DNA of 39,006 nucleotides, taken from IMG/VR virus record IMGVR_UViG_3300037882_001033, positions 1 to 39,006 of that record, one strand, 5' to 3'. The notes below the pieces were generated by a model. That model searched no databases. It was not told where the DNA came from and was given only the letters and a program-made list of their open reading frames with translations. This document shows positions 6,372-21,314 of this stretch, in pieces. The first letter of the stretch is position 1. Every line of letters begins with the position of its first letter. Position numbers and translations under genes: made by a program. Origin of the DNA: a virus.

Positions 6372-6605
6372 ATGACACTCAAAGACATTATAGCACAAGA
6401 ACTCGGTGAAGACATAGCAGAAGTGTTTATGCTCAATCAGTTGTACCTGTCACCAGAGCGGCGGATTGCGGATAAACAGCGATCCTGTTTTGATATAAGG
6501 TATTTATTTGTGTGTACACTCCCACATCAGCATAGTGGACTTCATGCCGCCCATGGCCTCTCAGGGAACATCGTCTTTGAATGGCCACAGGAGTCACAGT
6601 CATGA
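6372..6605 (+). CDS. array paralogue 1: MTL...C/C/H/H mini-protein (diverged)
   Basis: 77 residues, first and most diverged of eight adjacent paralogues. It begins MTLKDIIAQEL and keeps the C-terminal signature: C39, C48-T, H54, H58 (CTLPHQHSGLH). The family pattern is C-x(8-12)-C-T-x4-H-x3-H, which could bind one zinc. The start has AAGGGG 8 bases upstream. The stop overlaps the next gene as ATGA. Function unknown. Confidence 0.75.
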   Translation: MTLKDIIAQELGEDIAEVFMLNQLYLSPERRIADKQRSCFDIRYLFVCTLPHQHSGLHAAHGLSGNIVFEWPQESQS

Positions 6606-6826
6606 CATTAGAGGAGTATCTGGTACAGGTGTTACAAGGGGAGCTGATACCCCTTCCCCCATTAGTCTATAAGAGTACTCCACTAGAGGCTTTTGAGTAC
6701 ATGACTCAGTTTAACCCTCGATGTAATCATATTGGTATAGCGGGGCATCCCTGTACTCGACCTGTAGGACATTATGGTCCTCATATCTCACGAACAAAGA
6801 CGGATCTTGTTCTTGCAAAATGGTAG
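6602..6826 (+). CDS. array paralogue 2
   Basis: 74 residues. The start ATG 6602 overlaps the preceding stop (ATGA) and has CAGGAG upstream. It begins MTLEEYLVQVLQGELIPLPP, the shared N-terminal module of a short helix plus GEL and a Pro pair. The metal-type residues are C41, C51, H57 and H61. It lacks the YC..W ending of paralogues 4-7. Confidence 0.8.
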   Translation: MTLEEYLVQVLQGELIPLPPLVYKSTPLEAFEYMTQFNPRCNHIGIAGHPCTRPVGHYGPHISRTKTDLVLAKW

Positions 6827-6834
6827 AGTGACCT

Positions 6835-7062
6835 ATGACACTAGAAGAATATGTGATAAAGGTGTTGACGGGAGAGCTAGTGCTTCCACCGGTCGTCCAT
6901 GATAACAACATAACAGCTATACCATACCTGAGTACAGGTAATCGTCATTGTCCGAGTGTTAGTCCAAATGGGTATCGGTGTACACGATACACTACGCACC
7001 TAGGAGAACACATCTCTAGAACAGCGTCTTGGGAATTCCTCGATCAATGGTCACAAACATGA
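6835..7062 (+). CDS. array paralogue 3
   Basis: 75 residues, beginning MTLEEYVIKVLTGELVLPP. The signature residues are C39, C49, H55 and H59 (RCTRYTTHLGEH). Like paralogue 2 it ends in a W-containing tail without the extra Cys. The ribosome site is poor (TAGAGTGACCT), so translation may depend on coupling. The stop overlaps paralogue 4 as ATGA. Confidence 0.8.
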   Translation: MTLEEYVIKVLTGELVLPPVVHDNNITAIPYLSTGNRHCPSVSPNGYRCTRYTTHLGEHISRTASWEFLDQWSQT

Positions 7063-7301
7063 CACTTGAACAATACATTACCAAAGTGATCCAAGGAAAG
7101 ATCCTATATACACCACTTGAGTATAGTGTCACTAGCCCCATAGATACGAGTTGTAATACCGATGATATGGATTTTGAGTATAGCTGTGATGAAACATATC
7201 ATGATGGGCATTACCGATGGGCTTGTACACGATCCAACGGGCATGAGGGCACTCATATTGCCCGGCAGAGTGATGGGACGTATTGTGCACACTGGGAGTA
7301 A
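7059..7301 (+). CDS. array paralogue 4
   Basis: 80 residues, beginning MTLEQYITKVIQGKILYTP. Residues C43, C56, H62, H66 and C76 give the fuller form with ending YCAHWE. The linker between the N-terminal module and the signature is longer and acidic (DDMDFEYSCDE). The start is coupled to paralogue 3 by ATGA. Confidence 0.8.
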   Translation: MTLEQYITKVIQGKILYTPLEYSVTSPIDTSCNTDDMDFEYSCDETYHDGHYRWACTRSNGHEGTHIARQSDGTYCAHWE

Positions 7302-7303
7302 CT

Positions 7304-7555
7304 ATGACACTCCAAGACTATCTCACACAGATCATTGAAGGACATCTTGTACCACCACTAGGGCTTGTTTATATACAAGAAGAGGTCATTGAAGCTATTA
7401 AGCATGAACGTGATAAAAGCAATATGGAACCTCGTAGAGATCATCGTTGTTCACAGGATAGCCGCGATGGTTGGTACTGTACACTCACTCGTGGTCACAT
7501 TGGTCGGCATGTAGCACGAAATAGTTATGGTGATTATTGCGATGATTGGGACTAA
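7304..7555 (+). CDS. array paralogue 5
   Basis: 83 residues. ATG 7304 follows the preceding stop by 2 bases. The GGGAG that can serve as its ribosome site is made by the codons for the conserved Trp-Glu end of paralogue 4. It begins MTLQDYLTQIIEGHLVPP; the signature is C49, C59, H65, H69 and C79 (YCDDWD). The linker is charged (KHERDKSN). Confidence 0.8.
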   Translation: MTLQDYLTQIIEGHLVPPLGLVYIQEEVIEAIKHERDKSNMEPRRDHRCSQDSRDGWYCTLTRGHIGRHVARNSYGDYCDDWD

Positions 7556-7557
7556 CG

Positions 7558-7803
7558 ATGACCTTAGAACAATACATCATCAAAGTCATGCATGGAGAGA
7601 TTGTGATTCCTCCCCCACCTCCAGTGATTGATACCATCAATCGAGGGATTGATCGGTCAGATATGGCTATACATGAGCGGGACTACTGTATTGGTCCATG
7701 TGACAGGTACAGTCGTGGATATATCTGTACTCGTCCTAAAGGCCATGAAGGCCCGCATGTCGCACGACTCTCAGGTGGAACCTATTGTCATCACTGGGAC
7801 TAA
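7558..7803 (+). CDS. array paralogue 6
   Basis: 81 residues, beginning MTLEQYIIKVMHGEIVIPPPPP. The signature is C44, C48, C57, H63, H67 and C77 (YCHHWD). Its first 45 bases closely match those of paralogue 7, pointing to a recent duplication or conversion. It starts 2 bases after the preceding stop. Confidence 0.8.
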   Translation: MTLEQYIIKVMHGEIVIPPPPPVIDTINRGIDRSDMAIHERDYCIGPCDRYSRGYICTRPKGHEGPHVARLSGGTYCHHWD

Positions 7804-7804
7804 T

Positions 7805-8047
7805 ATGACCTTAGAACAATACATCAGTAAAGTCTTCCATGGCGAGATCACACTTATCGTCAAACCACCAGATGCACCAATTCCAATCAGTCATGGCATT
7901 GATCCAGATAATATGGAACCTGTACAACAAAATCGTTGCCTGGCTTGCCATAACGGATGGGTCTGTACACTCTCAAAAGGCCACGAGGGTCGGCATGTAG
8001 CTCGTCAACCTCATGGACTATATTGTGATGACTGGGAGCAAGTATGA
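7805..8047 (+). CDS. array paralogue 7
   Basis: 80 residues, beginning MTLEQYISKVFHGEI. The signature is C45, C48, C54, H60, H64 and C74 (YCDDWE). Its linker repeats GIDxxxM as in paralogue 6. The start follows the preceding TAA by 1 base, and the stop overlaps paralogue 8 as ATGA. Confidence 0.8.
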   Translation: MTLEQYISKVFHGEITLIVKPPDAPIPISHGIDPDNMEPVQQNRCLACHNGWVCTLSKGHEGRHVARQPHGLYCDDWEQV

Positions 8048-8247
8048 CCTTAGAAGACTACATCCAACGAGTCTGGTCTGGACAGATTGTGGTTACACCC
8101 ACACACTATCCAGTCGAAAGACCATTTGAGAGGGGCTGTGGTGCTGAAAAAGAAGGCTGGCGATGTACTTTACCACTAGGACATGAAAACCAACATGAAG
8201 CCTATGGTGGAGGAGCTGAGCCATATTATGTTTGGCCTAATGAATAA
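8044..8247 (+). CDS. array paralogue 8 (short)
   Basis: 67 residues, the shortest member, beginning MTLEDYIQRVWSGQIVVTP. The signature is C32, C41, H47 and H51 (RCTLPLGHENQH). The C-terminal tail is Gly/Tyr-rich and lacks the extra Cys. It closes the array and is followed by a strong AAAGGAGG ribosome site for a broken reading frame. Confidence 0.8.
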   Translation: MTLEDYIQRVWSGQIVVTPTHYPVERPFERGCGAEKEGWRCTLPLGHENQHEAYGGGAEPYYVWPNE

Positions 8248-8259
8248 AGGAGGTGTGCC

Positions 8260-8307
8260 ATGTGCCCACGATGCTATACTTTAGTAGGAACAGCTAACTT
8301 ATTGTAG
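8260..8307 (+). pseudogene. broken start of a zinc-ribbon gene, cut by endonuclease insertion
   Basis: An excellent AAAGGAGGTG site precedes ATG 8260, but the frame gives only MCPRCYTLVGTANLL before TAG. It runs into the antisense end of the endonuclease gene from 8274. MCPRC looks like the first half of a zinc ribbon. The gene at 8801 also starts with a CNRC motif sharing CGATGC at the DNA level, so this is probably the orphaned original start. Confidence 0.45.
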
Positions 8308-8741
8308 TAAATAAGATAATTAATTAGAGCTGTAGCTATATTAATATCTTCATAAATATACCCTATAGCTCTATTACAATTACCACATAATAACCCTCTT
8401 ATTTGCCCTGTAGTATGATTATGGTCAACATTTAATGTACGAGTTTGTTGTTTATAGCACACGGCGCAAACAAACTTTTGCAGTTCTAATAACGTGTTGA
8501 ATTGTTCTAATGTTATTCCATATTTCTTTAATCTTTGTGCTCGTTTTATATGTGGGTTAGCCATACGCCATGCTTTCGCGTAAGCTAGCCGTTTTTCTTT
8601 GTTCTTTTCGTAATATCGTTTACATGACTCTAAAAATGGTTTAGGGTTAGCTGCATATTCTGCTTTAGCTTTAGCCCTAATACTTTCTTTGTTCTTTTGG
8701 TAAAAGGTTTTATTATGTTGCTTCGTATTTTTATGGGACAT
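8274..8741 (-). CDS. endonuclease VII-like HNH homing endonuclease
   Basis: 155 residues. The C-terminal half matches recombination endonuclease VII-type HNH domains: C92xxC95, then VDHNHTTG (D106, H107, H109) and LLCGNCN (C119, C122, N123). The N-terminal 70 residues are a basic Lys/Ala helix, probably DNA-binding. It is antisense to its neighbours, strongly AT-rich and Lys-rich, and sits between a broken start (8260) and a related intact gene (8801). These are signs of a mobile, recently acquired gene. Confidence 0.88.
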   Translation of the reverse strand: MSHKNTKQHNKTFYQKNKESIRAKAKAEYAANPKPFLESCKRYYEKNKEKRLAYAKAWRMANPHIKRAQRLKKYGITLEQFNTLLELQKFVCAVCYKQQTRTLNVDHNHTTGQIRGLLCGNCNRAIGYIYEDINIATALINYLIYYNKLAVPTKV

Positions 8742-9766: not shown

Positions 9767-9844
9767 ATGACGACAAACTAATGCTGTGCCTGTGCCGTCG
9801 GTGTCAACCCTGTGCCATCATCTAACCTGGAGGTATTCACATGA
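9767..9844 (+). pseudogene. short gene interrupted by a stop codon (readthrough or decay)
   Basis: A strong AAAGGAGG precedes ATG 9767, but the frame reads MTTN then TAA (9779-9781). Past the TAA the same frame continues CCACAVGVNPVPSSNLEVFT and ends in a TGA that overlaps the next ATG as ATGA, the standard junction here. So the full 25-codon frame looks like a gene broken by one stop. A nested frame (ATG 9781) encodes MLCLCRRCQPCAII. Confidence 0.4.
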
Positions 9845-10032
9845 CCTTAGAGGAATTCATCAAGCAGACCTTGTGCAAGAGTGGTGTGCAGTCCGTGGCG
9901 GGAGTGGAGTTGACCTTTGGAGATGGGCGTAAGCTCACCATCCATAGTGATGACCACCCGGCATTGAAGCAGATCGTCACTGATAAGCCATCAGTGAAGG
10001 CTGTGCAGTCTGCTGAAGGCGGTCTGCGTTAA
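9841..10032 (+). CDS. 63-residue protein ending in Gly-Gly-Leu-Arg; speculative ubiquitin-like modifier
   Basis: It starts MTLEEFIKQTL, echoing the array N-terminal module. It has a predicted beta-hairpin (VELTFGDGRKLTIH), a short helix (ALKQIVTDK) and a tail that ends SAEGGLR. A terminal GG with two extra residues is what a processed ubiquitin-like precursor would show, and E2-, E1- and JAMM-like genes follow. The chain is short for a full beta-grasp fold, and a terminator separates it from that cassette, so the role is a hypothesis. The ribosome site is CTGGAGGT. Confidence 0.7.
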   Translation: MTLEEFIKQTLCKSGVQSVAGVELTFGDGRKLTIHSDDHPALKQIVTDKPSVKAVQSAEGGLR

Positions 10033-10039
10033 AGAGTGT

Positions 10040-10065
10040 AGGGGGTAGGCAGAGGTCTACCCCCT
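10040..10065 (+). terminator. intrinsic terminator
   Basis: AGGGGGTAG (10040-10048) pairs exactly with CTACCCCCT (10057-10065) around an 8-base loop and is followed by a T-rich run (ATTCTTTCTCTCATT). It should end or reduce transcription before the E2/E1/JAMM genes. A weak TTGTCA at 10079-10084 might start a new transcript. Confidence 0.6.
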
Positions 10066-10127
10066 ATTCTTTCTCTCATTGTCAATTGTGGGAGTGGGAG
10101 AAGGAATATCTTTAACCGAAAGGATTT

Positions 10128-10634
10128 ATGATGGATGTGGCATTGACCCCGACGTATTCAGCCGCAGTCAAAGACGAAACCTCCAAGTGGTTACTCGCCT
10201 TGTTAAGACGAGCGAACTTGGATGGTGCAAGTAAGCCAGGATCACTCACAGGGCATGTGTACATCAACAATGCCCCTAAGCTCTATCTCGCTGGTCGCTG
10301 GCAAATGGATGAATCGTACATCCATCTCGCAGGGAGCACATCAGACCAGACTATCTCAAGCTTCTCGCGCTTAGCTATCCTCGCAGCAATTGCGAAGTCT
10401 ACTGGCGTGATGGAAGGCCCATTGGTAGAGCGATTTTCAGTGCGACTGGCTGAGGAAATACGTAAGCAGACTCAACAGGTGTATGGACTTATTGTCTCAG
10501 CCACACAAACACCCCAACGGATGGCGATTGACCCCGTAGGGTGTCAGGTGGCCACAGAAATCAATGGACGTTGGACACTCCAGAGTGGAGCCACCGTGGA
10601 GGTAGGAGAATCATGGATCATTATGAATTTCTAG
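10128..10634 (+). CDS. unknown protein at the head of the E2/E1/JAMM cassette
   Basis: 168 residues, not recognised. A helical N-terminus (KWLLALLRRANLDG) leads to a beta-rich segment (GHVYINNAPKLYLAGRWQ), a long helical middle (FSRLAILAAIAKS...LAEEIRKQTQQVYG) and a beta C-terminus. It overlaps the E2-like gene by 22 bases, so it is translationally linked and likely part of the same system, perhaps as adaptor or substrate. The start follows AAAGGATTT; ATG 10131 is also possible. Confidence 0.7.
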   Translation: MMDVALTPTYSAAVKDETSKWLLALLRRANLDGASKPGSLTGHVYINNAPKLYLAGRWQMDESYIHLAGSTSDQTISSFSRLAILAAIAKSTGVMEGPLVERFSVRLAEEIRKQTQQVYGLIVSATQTPQRMAIDPVGCQVATEINGRWTLQSGATVEVGESWIIMNF

Positions 10635-11098
10635 CTCTCACGCGTCACGCCAGTCAAGAGATGCTCAAGTCGAGTCGTGCACGAGTCGAGAGTACTGCAT
10701 GGGGGTTAGTGGGACAACCGTTGTTCTATCCTGAGTCACGGTGTCCATTTTGTAAGACTGTGGTACGCTCACCATATGTGTGGATAATACAAGAGATGAC
10801 TGATCGTGCTATACCACGGTTACTCGGTGCATTCCTTCCTCAAGCTGATGGACGGGTGACAGTCGTACAACCCAGTCATCCACATGACACTGGTGGAGGG
10901 TATTTGTGCCGTGGTCAACATGACACCGTATGGGGGTTACTCGCGAGTGCTCCGAACCTGAATGACTGTCCTATGGGACAGTTTCGAGTACCACTATGGC
11001 TCAAACGGTACTGGAATCACCCGAACTGTGCCGAAGCGATCACGTATATGCAAGCACATGAAGTGGGTAAAACATTTATCACGGAGTATCTATCATGA
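10613..11098 (+). CDS. E2-like (UBC-fold) ubiquitin-conjugating enzyme homologue, predicted
   Basis: 161 residues. The segment HPHDTGGGYLCRG (H89-P90-H91 to C99) matches the bacterial E2-like pattern HPH...G.iC.G, in which the Cys takes the modifier as a thioester. A CPFC pair is at 44-47. The C-terminal part is helical (WLKRYWNHPNCAEAITYM), as expected in an E2 fold. The start ATG 10613 has GGAGGTAGGAG upstream. It couples to the E1-like gene by ATGA. The call rests on one motif plus context. Confidence 0.6.
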   Translation: MDHYEFLALTRHASQEMLKSSRARVESTAWGLVGQPLFYPESRCPFCKTVVRSPYVWIIQEMTDRAIPRLLGAFLPQADGRVTVVQPSHPHDTGGGYLCRGQHDTVWGLLASAPNLNDCPMGQFRVPLWLKRYWNHPNCAEAITYMQAHEVGKTFITEYLS

Positions 11099-11652
11099 TT
11101 CATGTTGTAGGACTAGGTGGAGTAGGATTCTGGTTGACGGTAGGCCTGACACGTCTCATGCCACCTGACCAGATACAATGTTGGGATGACGATACGCTAG
11201 CAGGTGGATTAGGTGCGTCACGCTTACCATGGGGGCCAGCCTCAACCAAGAAGGTCGAGTTACTGACTGGCTATCTGAGCATGGTCTTTGGTGATCGTAT
11301 TCTCCCACAGGTGGTGGATAGAAAGTTTAGTGGCGTTAACGGTGTCACTGAAGGCGATACCATCATCGACTGTACTGATATGCCCATTACCGCCCGTAAG
11401 CGTATGTGGGGAGTGAGTAAAGGGAAAGGGGCGAAGTTGATACGTGTGAGCTATGATGGACAGGGATCAACAGTACTGGTATCGACAGGCTTACCGTTAT
11501 TAGCTACCACTACTGGTGGGTATGCTGCGGTTCCCTCATTAGCACTCTCACTGGCCGCTGGAGGTATAGGCGCTGAAGTCGTCAAGCGCTATCTCGATAC
11601 CCACCAAGACCACTTCACCTTTACATTCTCTGTAGAAGGAGCCTTACAATGA
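11095..11652 (+). CDS. E1-like / ThiF-family adenylating protein (short, no obvious catalytic Cys)
   Basis: 185 residues. The nucleotide loop GLGGVG is at 6-11, followed by acidic DDD at 31-33 and R43, KK at 52-53, and IDCTD (91-95) with R101, as in ThiF/MoeB/E1 proteins that adenylate a Ubl C-terminus. It is shorter than the usual 240-260 residues. The only cysteines are C29 and C93, both in the nucleotide region, so no separate thioester Cys is seen. It lies between the E2-like gene (ATGA overlap) and the JAMM gene. Confidence 0.82.
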   Translation: MIHVVGLGGVGFWLTVGLTRLMPPDQIQCWDDDTLAGGLGASRLPWGPASTKKVELLTGYLSMVFGDRILPQVVDRKFSGVNGVTEGDTIIDCTDMPITARKRMWGVSKGKGAKLIRVSYDGQGSTVLVSTGLPLLATTTGGYAAVPSLALSLAAGGIGAEVVKRYLDTHQDHFTFTFSVEGALQ

Positions 11653-11738
11653 GTATCTTGGATGCGCCAGTCCTACTGCTCACAATTCTCATTGGTGTGA
11701 CCTGTGTGATTGGGATATTAATTTACTTCTTTGAATAA
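11649..11738 (+). CDS. 29-residue single-span membrane protein
   Basis: The ATG overlaps the E1-like stop as ATGA. The peptide starts MSILDAPVLLLTILIG and is one hydrophobic helix to IYFFE. Its place inside the cassette suggests co-expression. Function unknown; it may be a membrane anchor or a lysis-type mini-protein. Confidence 0.55.
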   Translation: MSILDAPVLLLTILIGVTCVIGILIYFFE

Positions 11739-11753
11739 CGAAAGGATGGTCTT

Positions 11754-12635
11754 ATGCTGACGATACCTGTGATTGAGTCCTGTCCCCATACTGTGACAGG
11801 ACGAGGGAAATTGACGATTGCCCATACAATCCTCGCCACCTTCGCTGGTGCGGTGTATGAGCGAGAGGAGTGGATGGCCTTACTTCTAGGTACACGCGAT
11901 GAAAGTGGATTGAATATCAATGTGACAGGTATACGAGTTCCACTTCAACAACGTAGTGTCGGGAACTGTAAGCTGGTGAAGGAAGAAGAACTCACTCCAG
12001 ACATTGTGGGTGTCGTACATTCTCACCATAGCATGGGTGCATTCTTTAGTGTGACAGACCATGATACCTTGAATCCACGGTTCCCAATGTCTATTGTCGT
12101 GGCACAACCGAAGGTGAATGAGTCTCAGGTGGAGCGGTTGTTAGGGTTTACATACAAAGCCGAAGGTCGGGTCGTGTTACCCTGTGGTAGTATAGGCATT
12201 GTGTCATTCACTGTCCTACCTGATCCTGTACTTGAAGCCTGGCCTGAGACAGTGACAGGAGCATTCCGTATACCTCACCTCAATACAGCACTTGATGAAT
12301 GCCCACACACTACCCGTACACGAGTTCAGTTGATGGATACCTGCACTACTACCTGTGGTATTGTCAGGACTGAACCAGCTGACACCCTATTTGGTCGAGA
12401 GAGTACAGAGTTTGTAAAGGAAGTGGAGAAGATGACTAAAGGGTATAACTTCCAGAAGGGTGATTACTGGGATCGTTCTACTAACTGGGTTAACCGTATC
12501 CCTGACAATCCGTATCAGTCTCTTGTGGTAGTAGACAATCGTCAACATGGTAAAAAAAAGGACAAGTCTCTACGTACATTAACACGCGAGGAGGGGTACT
12601 TCTATCGCGGATGGGGGGAATATGGCGACGACTAA
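11754..12635 (+). CDS. JAMM/JAB (MPN-type) metalloprotease, predicted deconjugase
   Basis: 293 residues. The N-terminal domain has the full JAMM zinc motif: H89-S-H91, seven residues, S99, two residues, D102, with E39 upstream in EEWMALLLG. In the family these residues hold zinc and cleave isopeptide or Ubl-precursor bonds. The C-terminal 150 residues have no recognised fold, with four cysteines between about 180 and 205 (ECPHTT...CTTTCG), and end charged. AAAGGATGG precedes ATG 11754. Position after E2- and E1-like genes is the classic bacterial ubiquitin-pathway order. Confidence 0.85.
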   Translation: MLTIPVIESCPHTVTGRGKLTIAHTILATFAGAVYEREEWMALLLGTRDESGLNINVTGIRVPLQQRSVGNCKLVKEEELTPDIVGVVHSHHSMGAFFSVTDHDTLNPRFPMSIVVAQPKVNESQVERLLGFTYKAEGRVVLPCGSIGIVSFTVLPDPVLEAWPETVTGAFRIPHLNTALDECPHTTRTRVQLMDTCTTTCGIVRTEPADTLFGRESTEFVKEVEKMTKGYNFQKGDYWDRSTNWVNRIPDNPYQSLVVVDNRQHGKKKDKSLRTLTREEGYFYRGWGEYGDD

Positions 12636-12960: not shown

Positions 12961-13410
12961 ATGAAACTCAGTGAAGCCATACTATTAGGGAGTATCGGGA
13001 GTGAACAAGGGTTTGGGTGTGGCAGTATATATAAAGGTAGCCTCAAGAAATGTGCATTAGGAGCAGCCTTATTAGGAATTGGAAAGGAACAGGAAGAGGG
13101 TATACAAGCCTATAACACAATCATTGAGGTATGGCCATGGACCAGAGTAAGTATCCTTGCACCCGTCCATATGCCTCAACGTGAAGTATGGGGGGACTTT
13201 CCCAGTAAGGCTGAAACTATGTATGCTCTGATCTGGATGCTGAATGACTACGCCAAATGGACCCGACCACAGATCGCTGCTTGGGTTGCCACACTTGAAG
13301 CTCAGTATGATCCGACACCAGAGGAGGTATGCCCATGTCCCTCGATGACGACCTTACCCGCACCAAGCATACCATTGGTAGACTCCGTGCTCGCAGGCCA
13401 GATAACCTAG
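12961..13410 (+). CDS. MKLSEAILLGS family protein, copy 2
   Basis: 149 residues, paralogue of the gene at 9143. They share the start MKLSEAILLGS, a GFG segment, KCALGAALLG near residue 38, WPW (60-62) and LND...RPQIAAWVATLE. Identity is moderate, so the split is old. TAGGAGGAGC precedes the ATG. The last 76 bases overlap the sigma-like gene. Confidence 0.75.
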   Translation: MKLSEAILLGSIGSEQGFGCGSIYKGSLKKCALGAALLGIGKEQEEGIQAYNTIIEVWPWTRVSILAPVHMPQREVWGDFPSKAETMYALIWMLNDYAKWTRPQIAAWVATLEAQYDPTPEEVCPCPSMTTLPAPSIPLVDSVLAGQIT

Positions 13411-13787
13411 AAGATTACTTTCATGATGCCATCTGTCGAGCACTGACACGGAAGATTCCATTAACTGACCAGGGGTATCTATATAAGTCTGTCTATAACC
13501 GTATCGCGTGTGGTCGGGAGGAGCGAGACTATGTACTATTGGATGAGGGACTAGTGGAAGATACTCATTCTCTAGACCGTCATCTCAAGCTGGATGTTCA
13601 ACAAGCCTTAAAAACATTGCGACCTGTGCAGTACCTCTACATCTATGAGTTCTTCTATGAGGGCTATACCTGTCGAGAGATTGCACGACGACATTATGTG
13701 ACGTTTCAAGCAGTCAACCAGGCCATTCAACGTGCTTTACAAGCCATGAAAAGGATACTTCAACATGAAACCGAGACTGAAATTTGA
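13335..13787 (+). CDS. sigma-factor-like protein (ECF/region 4 HTH)
   Basis: 150 residues from ATG 13335, chosen because GAGGAGG lies 7 bases upstream; ATG 13329 is too close. The N-terminal part (LEDYFHDAICRAL, then GYLYKSVYNRI) resembles sigma region 2. The C-terminal part has region-4-like helix-turn-helix: LRPVQYLYIYEFFYEGYTCREIARRH then TFQAVNQAIQRALQAM. It may redirect host RNA polymerase to late genes. The core region 2 contacts are weak, so a regulator with only an HTH remains possible. Confidence 0.65.
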   Translation: MSLDDDLTRTKHTIGRLRARRPDNLEDYFHDAICRALTRKIPLTDQGYLYKSVYNRIACGREERDYVLLDEGLVEDTHSLDRHLKLDVQQALKTLRPVQYLYIYEFFYEGYTCREIARRHYVTFQAVNQAIQRALQAMKRILQHETETEI

Positions 13788-18677: not shown

Positions 18678-21314
18678 ATGGTACCAAAACCTAACAGCTG
18701 TATAGATTGTCCACTCTATAGTGATGGCCAAGGCTTTGTGCCAGATGAGCTAATACCTGGAGCCACCACCCTGGTCCTCGGCCAAGCTCCTGGTTCTACT
18801 GAGGAACGTACTGGCAAACCCTTTGTGGGTGCGACTGGAGAACTCCAGACCACGCACTTCTTCCCTCTCGCTGGGCTAGAGCGTGGTGTCAACGTATCAA
18901 TCGCGAATGTTCTCAAGTGCCGGTGGGTGGACGGTGGGAAGAAGACCGATAAGCTTCCTCCTGAGCCTCTACTGGCTCAGGCCGTCGCACACTGTACCAC
19001 CCACCACTTGCGTGTACCAGCAGGTGTACGTATGGTCATTGCTGAGGGGGTGCTAGCAGCCAGTTGGTGTATGGCTCAACCCATCAAGCTGTACCAGTGG
19101 CGGGGACATGTGCTACACCCAACCAGACGAGGCTTACCCCCTGTGTACTGTGTAGAACATCTCGCCAGTGTGCTGAGAGATCCAAAGATGTGGTGGGTCG
19201 CAGAGTTGGACTGGAGAAAGGCCCAGCGTACCGCACAGAACTGGCCTCAAGTAATCCCCCCAAGGGTGATAGCCAGGGCAGATAATTGGGAGCTAGTGTC
19301 ACGGTGGTATGCAGGTTCTACAGCTTCCAAGGGGGTCGTCGCGATAGACACCGAGTTTGTTGGCCGACCCTTTGGAGCAGCCCAGCCTCTACTGACCATG
19401 ATTGGAATGGCGTACACTGATCGTGAAGGTCAGGTCCAGGGTATCCAACTGGACTGCCGTAGTGCAGAACCGTGGATGAAAGCCAGCTTTTACCAGCACT
19501 TACGTGAGCTGGTGACCAAGGTACCGGTGTTGTTCCAGAACTTCGCGGCTGATATGCCCATCCTCAAACGGTGTGCGGGGGTACCCTATGAGTCATACCT
19601 TCAGGTAGAGGACCAGATGCTGGCCCATGCAGTGTTGTACTGTGAACTCCCTCATGATCTAGAGTTCCTGACGAGTATCTATGGTGGATACTATAAGATC
19701 AAACACTTAGGAGACTATGATATCCCTGAGACTGAGAAGTGGGCGAGCTTGATTGCACTGCAACACCAGGGACAGCTCGCGTACGTCGAGGGTGACACCC
19801 CAGACCTCCTCTACAACTGGGGCGATGTCATTGAACCCCTGAAGATCTGGTCTGCCCTCACCCAGGCCTTCAAGATGGACCAGCTGGCGTATCAGGTGTA
19901 CCGTACACAGTCTATTGCGCTCATACCTACGCTACTCAAGAGTATGGAACGTGGACTGAAGGTGAATAAGTCTCGTGTCGTGGCTGCCAAGGACCAGTAC
20001 ACCGCACGTGTCTCGACCGCACAGGTCTTAGCTGAATCCTACTATGGTAAGCCTATCAACCTAGGTAGCGATGACCAGGTGGCCTACTACTGCTATCAAG
20101 AACGTGGCTACCCAGTGCAGCACCATCGCAAGTCCAAGAATCCTACAGTAGATGAAGACGCCATCGCTAACCTGAGAGACCATGTAGGACCTGATGTGGA
20201 TACCCAGGTAGACTTGACGTTACCTCTGGCACTCCTGCGTATTGACCAAGGGGCTGATCCCATATTGGAAGCACGAGTACTCTATCAAGAAGCCCAACAT
20301 ATTCTCGATAGCTATATCTATGGGTTGGTCTCTAGTGTCTATACTGAGCACGAGGAGTCCAAGAAGAAAGCGGCTCGCACCAAGGTCAAGCGCGAAGGGT
20401 TTACCGAAGCTGATGTGGTCGATCGGGTGTATGCGAACTTTGCGATCCACACTCAGAAGAATGCCCGGTGGTCTACCACCAACCCACCACTGGCACAACT
20501 CCCAGGAGACTTAAGAGATATTGTTGTACCTGACGATGGTGAGTGCTGGTTGCACTGGGACTGGAAAGGGATGGAAGTCCACTTCCTGGAAGCCCATAGT
20601 GGATCACGGTTGCTCAAGCAAGTCCACGACGAAGGCATCGACCTGCACACCTGGACCATGTGTAAGATGTTTGGGTACCAGTTGCCACCGAACTTGAAGA
20701 ACCCCTTTGGTGATCCGGTGAACCATGAATGGCGAGACCGCTATGGCTTACAATCTAGCGGTGATCCTCGGCGGGTGTTTAGTAAGTCATCTCGATTTGA
20801 GATGGCGTATGGAGGCACAGGCAGTAACGCCGCAGCGAAGGCCATACGTATGGGGTTGAATAAAGCGGAGGTCCAGCGTGCGTTGAGTAACCTACTCACT
20901 GCTGATGGGGACTACTATCGTTGGCGACAACAGATTGAACGAGAGATCAAGACATCACGGACATTACGCACGTTTACTGGGAGACCTCGTAGGTTCCTTA
21001 CGGTATCGAAGGAACATGGCACCGCAGTCCCAGCAAAGGTCGTACGTGAGGCACTCGATTATAAGATGCAGGCCGGTGTTTCGGACGTAGCCAACTTGAC
21101 CATCATCGAAATAGGTCTCAAGTATCCACAGTTGTTAATGGCCTGGACGGTACATGATGCACAGTACTATCACTGTCCAATCGCGCTGGCCACACCAGAG
21201 TTGATCGACGGGGTGAAAGCTATCGCAACAAAACCTTATACCATTGAGGGGCGAGTCAAGGCGTTCCCAATAGACTTTGATATCGTGTATCCACCAGGGG
21301 AGGTTAGAGTATGA
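18678..21314 (+). CDS. UDG - 3'-5' exonuclease - family A DNA polymerase fusion
   Basis: 878 residues. The N-terminal 170 form a family 4-type uracil-DNA glycosylase: CxxC at C8/C11, GQAPGSTEERTGKPFVGATGEL (35-56), C81 in NVLKCR, C106 and VEHLASVLR (H161), so the four-Cys iron-sulphur set looks intact. The exonuclease has DTE (D224, E226), QNFAADMP (N288, D292) and YNWGD (Y379, D383). The polymerase has motif A HWDWKGMEVHF, motif B RVFSKSSRFEMAYG (Lys and Phe present) and motif C TVHDA, where HDE is more usual. The ribosome site is weak. Confidence 0.92.
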   Translation: MVPKPNSCIDCPLYSDGQGFVPDELIPGATTLVLGQAPGSTEERTGKPFVGATGELQTTHFFPLAGLERGVNVSIANVLKCRWVDGGKKTDKLPPEPLLAQAVAHCTTHHLRVPAGVRMVIAEGVLAASWCMAQPIKLYQWRGHVLHPTRRGLPPVYCVEHLASVLRDPKMWWVAELDWRKAQRTAQNWPQVIPPRVIARADNWELVSRWYAGSTASKGVVAIDTEFVGRPFGAAQPLLTMIGMAYTDREGQVQGIQLDCRSAEPWMKASFYQHLRELVTKVPVLFQNFAADMPILKRCAGVPYESYLQVEDQMLAHAVLYCELPHDLEFLTSIYGGYYKIKHLGDYDIPETEKWASLIALQHQGQLAYVEGDTPDLLYNWGDVIEPLKIWSALTQAFKMDQLAYQVYRTQSIALIPTLLKSMERGLKVNKSRVVAAKDQYTARVSTAQVLAESYYGKPINLGSDDQVAYYCYQERGYPVQHHRKSKNPTVDEDAIANLRDHVGPDVDTQVDLTLPLALLRIDQGADPILEARVLYQEAQHILDSYIYGLVSSVYTEHEESKKKAARTKVKREGFTEADVVDRVYANFAIHTQKNARWSTTNPPLAQLPGDLRDIVVPDDGECWLHWDWKGMEVHFLEAHSGSRLLKQVHDEGIDLHTWTMCKMFGYQLPPNLKNPFGDPVNHEWRDRYGLQSSGDPRRVFSKSSRFEMAYGGTGSNAAAKAIRMGLNKAEVQRALSNLLTADGDYYRWRQQIEREIKTSRTLRTFTGRPRRFLTVSKEHGTAVPAKVVREALDYKMQAGVSDVANLTIIEIGLKYPQLLMAWTVHDAQYYHCPIALATPELIDGVKAIATKPYTIEGRVKAFPIDFDIVYPPGEVRV

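Follow-up and report, generated by a model that had tools for sequence, protein, structure and literature searches.

A five-gene block of a tailed phage that probably encodes ubiquitin-like conjugation and deconjugation

Ubiquitin-type tagging is familiar above all from eukaryotes and from the defences of bacteria against viruses, and the conjugation of ubiquitin-like proteins (Ubls) in bacteria has so far been studied chiefly as anti-phage defence. The virus record IMG/VR IMGVR_UViG_3300037882_001033 raises the question of whether a phage can carry such a pathway itself. Its 39,006 bases, referred to here as the window, belong to a tailed phage and contain a block of five genes, all on the + strand, which encode in this order a Ubl candidate of 63 amino acids, a protein of 168 amino acids (u168), an E2-like protein, an E1-like protein and a JAMM protease. 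The block probably encodes a system with which the phage attaches a ubiquitin-like protein and detaches it again. This reading builds on the presence, linkage and synteny of the genes, on catalytic residues that are conserved, on a conserved Gly-Gly motif (GG) with a variable tail, and on the gain or loss of the whole block; the chemical steps, the direction of the reaction and the target are what we infer from it. The genes are:

9841..10032, + strand: Ubl candidate gene, 63 amino acids, MTLEEF...AEGG-LR
10128..10634, + strand: u168, protein of 168 amino acids and unknown fold, a constant partner gene without family match
10613..11098, + strand: putative E2-like protein, 161 amino acids, ATG start, H89-P-H91...C99-x-G101
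11095..11652, + strand: E1/ThiF-like, predicted adenylating protein, 185 amino acids, GLGGVG, WDDD and DCTD95
11754..12635, + strand: predicted JAMM/JAB metalloprotease, 293 amino acids, E39 and H89-S-H91-x7-S99-xx-D102, with a Cys-containing C-terminal extension

Conservation of the block in related phages

Three related IMG/VR contigs were reached via the terminase and the phage L017 via an alignment of the JAMM protein; contig G003 and locus L009 are the same. All five genes are found in the same order in three phages, namely the window, L009 (G003) and L017. The identities of the L009 and L017 proteins to those of the window are 74 and 71% for the Ubl candidate, 35 and 37% for u168, 38 and 45% for the E2-like protein, 67 and 64% for the E1-like protein, which is the best conserved enzyme of the cassette, and 53 and 51% for the JAMM protein. 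When the Ubl alignment was used to search viral contigs, the L009 and L017 loci were the only ones returned, and both carry the cassette. A more distant cassette, L018, retains the genes for the E1, the E2-like protein and the JAMM. Searches with single proteins in viral contigs and a phage collection yielded zero relatives of the E2 and the E1 and marginal ones of the JAMM; genome contigs held no relatives of the JAMM or the E1, and plasmids held none.

The sister phage G001, with a terminase 79% and a polymerase 72% identical, retains the flanking genes on both sides, but none of the five cassette genes was detected in it, and a search with the E1 profile was also negative. Because three phages carry the block and G001 lacks it with the flanks kept, the block is gained or lost as one unit, along with the gene for a 109-amino-acid protein at 12622. 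This gene adjoins the cassette in G003 and L017, has no match in the cassette-less G001, and possibly encodes a passenger or a target. A preliminary description of this DNA had proposed a linked Ubl, E2, E1 and JAMM cassette; all genes and motifs that it named were found in the window, and the cassette is backed by synteny, active-site conservation, the absence of the block from G001 and analogous phage cassettes.

Enzyme candidates and alternative functions

The assignment of the 293-amino-acid protein to the JAMM/JAB proteases is firm at the level of sequence. It matches Prok-JAB with an E-value of 1.7e-6, has the Glu and the HxHx7SxxD motif of the family, and E39, H89, H91, S99 and D102 are invariant in five sequences, so the complete JAMM motif noticed earlier holds with all its active-site residues. 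Its best PDB profile matches, which are weak, include the AMSH-like Sst2 and AfJAMM. The complete active site would also suit a phage counter-defence, in which the JAMM strips Ubl conjugates made by the cyclic oligonucleotide-based antiphage signalling system (CBASS) or the Bil system of the host, with the E1, the E2 and the 63-residue protein serving as decoys. Bacterial Ubl conjugation does serve anti-phage defence, as described for CBASS (PMC10097602) and for Bil (PMC11354881); however, the conjugation side is conserved beyond the JAMM, with the E1 ahead of the other enzymes, as in an active pathway, and the window proteins show no convincing similarity to defence families. We regard this explanation as very unlikely.

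The E1/ThiF assignment of the 185-amino-acid protein is equally firm as judged from its sequence. The window protein alone is barely a match to ThiF (E-value 0.21); with the alignment of the E1 proteins, a match to phage ThiF proteins extends over 159 columns (hhalign 97.4%, E-value 1.6e-11), which bears out the earlier identification. The ortholog from L018 matches ThiF (7.6e-5) and PRTRC_ThiF (2.6e-5), and MoeB models were matched as well. The GxGGxG motif and the Asp, Arg43, Lys53 and Asp95 positions are retained, as is characteristic of the ThiF superfamily. Of the two cysteines of the window E1, C29 and C93, C93 alone is invariant and is part of the ordinary DCTD motif; the separate catalytic Cys of canonical E1 enzymes is therefore absent, as had been proposed.

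An E1 without such a Cys resembles MoeB and ThiF, and the main alternative is a sulfur carrier of the ThiS/MoaD or QbsE type, in which the JAMM would trim the carrier, the E1 would adenylate it, and a thiocarboxylate would deliver sulfur. The matches of the L018 protein to both ThiF and MoeB models fit this function, and JAMM processing at a GG followed by one to two residues has a precedent in QbsE, from which a JAMM takes off the two residues after GG. However, the block includes an E2-like protein whose HPH...C motif is invariant, and analogous phage cassettes likewise pair a Ubl and an E1 with HxH...C proteins. Moreover, a rhodanese, a desulfurase or a sulfur acceptor was not seen among the window proteins scanned. 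A sulfur carrier thus appears rather unlikely.

We consider it quite probable that the 161-amino-acid protein is an E2, as indicated by its motif, its position in the operon and weak profile support. It carries the His...Cys active-site motif of E2/UBC proteins. H89, H91 and C99, like C44, C47 and H136, do not vary among four sequences; C139 is aligned in three, and L018 has a nearby Cys. C44-P-x-C47 together with H136/C139 suggests a probable Zn site beside the E2 active site. Aligned with the E2-like proteins of other phages, the E2 profile matches across HxH...C with an E-value of 0.025 and a score above those of 60 out of 60 column shuffles. In an AlphaFold model of low confidence (predicted local distance difference test score, pLDDT, 58.6), the order of helix, strands, active-site loop and helices is that of an E2. 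This model did not confirm the UBC fold anticipated in the preliminary description.

The unconfirmed E2 fold, the CPxC and H/C zinc-like residues and the missing full beta-grasp of the 63-residue protein would all be compatible with an E1-JAMM peptide modification pathway, in which the C-terminus of the 63-residue protein is adenylated or otherwise modified in an MccB-like manner and the 161-amino-acid protein is a zinc protein instead of an E2. Against this stand the alignment of the E2-like motif with proteins of other phage cassettes, which scores higher than every shuffle, the E2 order of elements in the model and the conservation of GG in the orthologs of the 63-residue protein, and we hold such a pathway to be unlikely. 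The E2-like protein of L018 (L018:6448-7416) has about 180 added residues rich in CxxC pairs, which perhaps form a treble-clef or RING-like domain and could make it an E2-E3 fusion.

The modifier candidate and the proposed pathway

If the block conjugates a Ubl, the 63-residue protein is the candidate modifier. Its C-terminus is AEGG-LR, and the L009 and L017 orthologs end in AQGG-D and AQGG-M, respectively; a fixed Gly-Gly with a variable tail of one to two residues (LR, D or M) is what would be expected of a Ubl precursor, and strengthens the earlier idea that this gene encodes a GG followed by a removable tail. GG near the C-terminus alone is not rare: it occurs within the last five residues in 5 of 296 window open reading frames (ORFs) of at least 40 amino acids and in 21 of 889 in relatives. 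Above chance, however, is the combination of a GG kept in three orthologs despite differing tails, a low rate of nonsynonymous substitution (dN 0.19-0.26 among three orthologs, the synonymous rate dS being saturated) and a gene encountered only alongside the cassette.

An AlphaFold model based on three sequences (pLDDT 80.4; predicted template modelling score, pTM, 0.61) consists of a helix (3-14), two strands (21-25 and 31-34), a short helix (40-43), a strand (51-55) and a flexible tail (60-63), an H-E-E-H-E order without beta1-beta2. When the model was compared with known structures using VIA-align, beta-grasp domains made up most of the 50 listed rows (Z 3.8-2.5), among them staphylococcal EAP/SSL, ubiquitin, NEDD8, ISG15, the parkin Ubl, FERM and the UFD of SUMO-E1; row 8tyx is a bacterial Ubl-deubiquitinase complex, and the span of ubiquitin aligned with the model runs from about residue 21 to 76. 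In sequence, the protein can be aligned from its second residue with the Ubl-like N-domains of crAss-like cassettes (TLEEFLKDTLCKSGI with TLGELKRELDNAGI, the latter from its residue 25), with z 5.9 for the best pair. When 1074 ORFs were ranked with its profile, the top 17% included all 13 Ubl candidates taken from the other cassettes; 1 of 60 column shuffles equalled their mean rank. Because VIA-align and the sequence rank and pair tests both point there, the protein looks like a beta-grasp that starts at its helix and lacks the N-terminal hairpin, with weak fold support. The beta-grasp fold expected earlier would thereby be represented by a helix-and-strand remnant resembling ubiquitin 21-76, but not in full, and its matches are weak. 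The strands of ubiquitin that would be left (order 5-3-4) form a contiguous sheet, so a remnant without the hairpin is sterically possible, and a partner might add a strand at the exposed edge of beta5. A late start that hides the missing hairpin was also considered; it is ruled out by upstream in-frame stops and by a Shine-Dalgarno sequence (GGAGG) before a conserved ATG, both found in all three phages.

Several results weigh against a complete conjugation pathway with this modifier. The VIA-align Z of the Ubl model, 3.8 at best, is a hint and not proof, hhalign gave no match between the 63-residue protein and other phage Ubl candidates, and family libraries recognised neither this protein nor the E2 nor u168. 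For the low-confidence E2 model, a PDB search remained without match and UBC folds were not among its results, and the ATP-site Asn of the N-x-x-R motif in the E1 is Leu, Ala or Thr in three close orthologs, with Asn in L018. In L018, a homolog of the 63-residue protein was not detected, and a 107-amino-acid gene at that place ends in KAGF. The preliminary description had named the retention of E1 and JAMM genes without a GGLR tail as an argument against a modifier; L018 is partly such a case, and L009 and L017 keep the GG with the tails D and M. The 107-amino-acid protein of L018 was considered as a Ubl counterpart and rejected, as position alone favours it and its sequence gives no support. 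A Foldseek search of a viral library with the Ubl model returned nothing informative.

Tentatively, the 63-residue protein may be the smallest ubiquitin-type covalent modifier, a helix-beta3-beta4-beta5-GG unit whose exposed sheet edge would be completed by a partner such as the 168-amino-acid protein or the enzymes and which would tag host or phage proteins in the course of infection. Seven tandem small genes at 6372-8247 of the window also begin with MTL[EQK]xxx.., like the MTLEEFI of the Ubl candidate, and most of them end in a CT..GHxGxH zinc-like motif; apart from the Ubl gene, this start pattern was not encountered in G003, G001 or L017.

In the proposed conjugation pathway, the JAMM would cut the 63-amino-acid precursor behind Gly61 and remove LR, leaving a mature form of 61 amino acids that ends in AEGG. 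The E1-like protein would use ATP to adenylate the Gly-Gly end of the trimmed Ubl and, as it lacks a catalytic Cys itself, would transfer the Ubl straight to the E2-like protein at Cys99. Conjugation to a target would then be the task of the E2, perhaps with the 168-amino-acid protein as an adaptor and probably at an early stage of infection; the JAMM could take the Ubl off the target again. Host or virion proteins might be conjugated; since the block sits among early-type accessory genes, host takeover or counter-defence would be likelier as the target process than virion assembly. If this is true of the full cassettes in several unrelated phage lineages, including the cultured crAss001, tagging would be a viral offensive or regulatory tool too, crAss-like genes filed as 'thiamine biosynthesis' or 'metalloprotease' would become testable, and the 61-amino-acid modifier would show the minimal ubiquitin fold needed for activation and transfer.

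The genes for u168, the E2 and the E1 may be translationally coupled because they overlap, by 22 nucleotides (u168/E2) and 4 nucleotides (E2/E1); the JAMM gene overlaps the next gene by 14 nucleotides. The block had been described as chained by overlaps, which applies to u168/E2 and E2/E1 but not to the 63-residue gene and u168 (a gap of 95 nucleotides) or the E1 and the JAMM (a gap of about 100 nucleotides). Further features of the region are:

10038..10067, + strand: terminator-like hairpin directly 3' of the Ubl gene
11649..11738, + strand: 29-codon ORF with a single transmembrane segment (MSILDAPVLLLTILIGVTCVIGILIYFFE), in this phage alone
12622..12951, + strand: 109-amino-acid gene with a CCIGFL motif, co-occurring with the cassette

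The strong hairpin lies within the 95-nucleotide gap (z -5.2); hairpins at the same site in L017 (z -3.7) and L009 (z -1.6) differ from it in sequence, and partial termination here could provide the modifier in excess over the enzymes. The 29-codon ORF, which occupies the gap between the E1 and the JAMM, is probably incidental, and the spacing at this place in L009 and L017 is too small for it. Small genes of early type lie on one side of the block and a sigma-like gene (13329-13787) on the other. Tailed-phage proteins of the window include a terminase, tail collar and fibre proteins, a DNA polymerase, a Sak4-like protein and a B12-type ribonucleotide reductase. An Endonuclease VII-like gene at 8274-8741, on the opposite (-) strand within the small-gene region, has a relative elsewhere in G003 and is possibly a mobile insertion. 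At 18678-21314, an N-terminal region like family 4 uracil-DNA glycosylases and a DNA polymerase I-like protein share a single frame.

Comparison with known systems

Other phages carry comparable cassettes. JAMM-ThiF pairs adjoin HxH...C proteins and Ubl-like genes in the crAss-like phages L002, L003 and L025-L029, with the same gene order in L038, and further cassettes are found in the cultured crAss001 (gp79-gp78-gp77-gp76), Flavobacterium phage FpV4 and Dulem virus 41. In crAss001 (L041, 1301-5711), gp79 to gp76 resemble the series Ubl, E2-like protein, JAMM and E1. Xanthomonas phage PhiXhv-15 (L040, 751-4630) has the series Ubl-E2-E1, with a 141-amino-acid Ubl candidate ending in KASGG and an E2-like protein of 892 amino acids with HPH...GSLCLG and a Cys-rich tail; no JAMM was recognised among its annotated neighbours. 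L021/L022 combine a 79-amino-acid gene, weakly ThiS-like (E-value 0.072), with an E2-like fusion containing HPHLSGGKPC, a JAMM and an E1. The E1 query matched 78 phage records, in many of which the E1 is annotated as 'thiamine biosynthesis protein', and the cassette genes in general mostly carry this or a hypothetical annotation. The small or N-terminal domains of these cassettes are candidate Ubls, as read from pattern and place and not from a database result. Like the window, these cassettes place Ubl-like, HxH...C E2-like, ThiF E1 and usually JAMM genes side by side, whereas their Ubls retain the part that precedes the helix and frequently carry a C-terminal extension, their E2-like proteins are larger (370-890 amino acids), and the E1 and the JAMM alone are clearly related to those of the window by sequence. 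The main text of the crAss gut survey mentions neither ThiF, JAB nor ubiquitin; the literature covered was open-access, which does not establish priority.

The antiphage Ubl system BilABCD also combines Ubl, E2, JAMM and E1 genes in one operon, and its JAMM exposes a C-terminal Gly (PMC11354881). However, BilA contains a pair of Ubl domains and BilD a Cys domain, whereas the phage-borne block of the window has a single mini-Ubl of 63 amino acids and a Cys-less E1 of 185. Type II CBASS shares with the window E1 and E2 activities and a JAB protease, contributed by Cap2/Cap3 (PMC10097602). In the window, unlike in CBASS, the E1 and the E2 are unfused and a separate Ubl candidate is present. Cap2 is an E1-E2 fusion that acts on the CD-NTase without a separate Ubl.

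The closest likeness is to the PRTRC operons, which we take to be type 6d of Iyer: both consist of separate genes for a small Ubl, an E2-like protein, an E1-like protein and a JAB, with one further protein besides. A 2006 survey predicted bacterial operons with such components (6a-6e); type 6d, found on plasmids and integrative and conjugative elements, comprises a Ubl, a JAB, an E1-like, an E2-like and an extra protein (PMC1779556). The phage Ubls found in this survey are tail-assembly proteins. The nearest curated models are PRTRC_ThiF for the L018 E1 and PRTRC_A for the JAMMs, both below their cut-offs (23.7 versus 144.75 bits and 16-19.5 versus 101.8 bits), and the PRTRC_B model gave no match. 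The E2 proteins of type 6d lack the classical His upstream of the Cys and have a conserved downstream His, whereas H89 and H91 of the window protein precede C99. The window JAMM is without an evident 6d N-terminal domain, the 168-amino-acid extra protein matches nothing, the Ubl seemingly lacks the first hairpin, and the cassette is phage-borne. Because the cassette stays below the PRTRC cut-offs and lacks the E2 signature of type 6d, we do not class it as PRTRC; it is best read as a system of the PRTRC-like (6d) kind, a differing variant with an unusual mini-Ubl.

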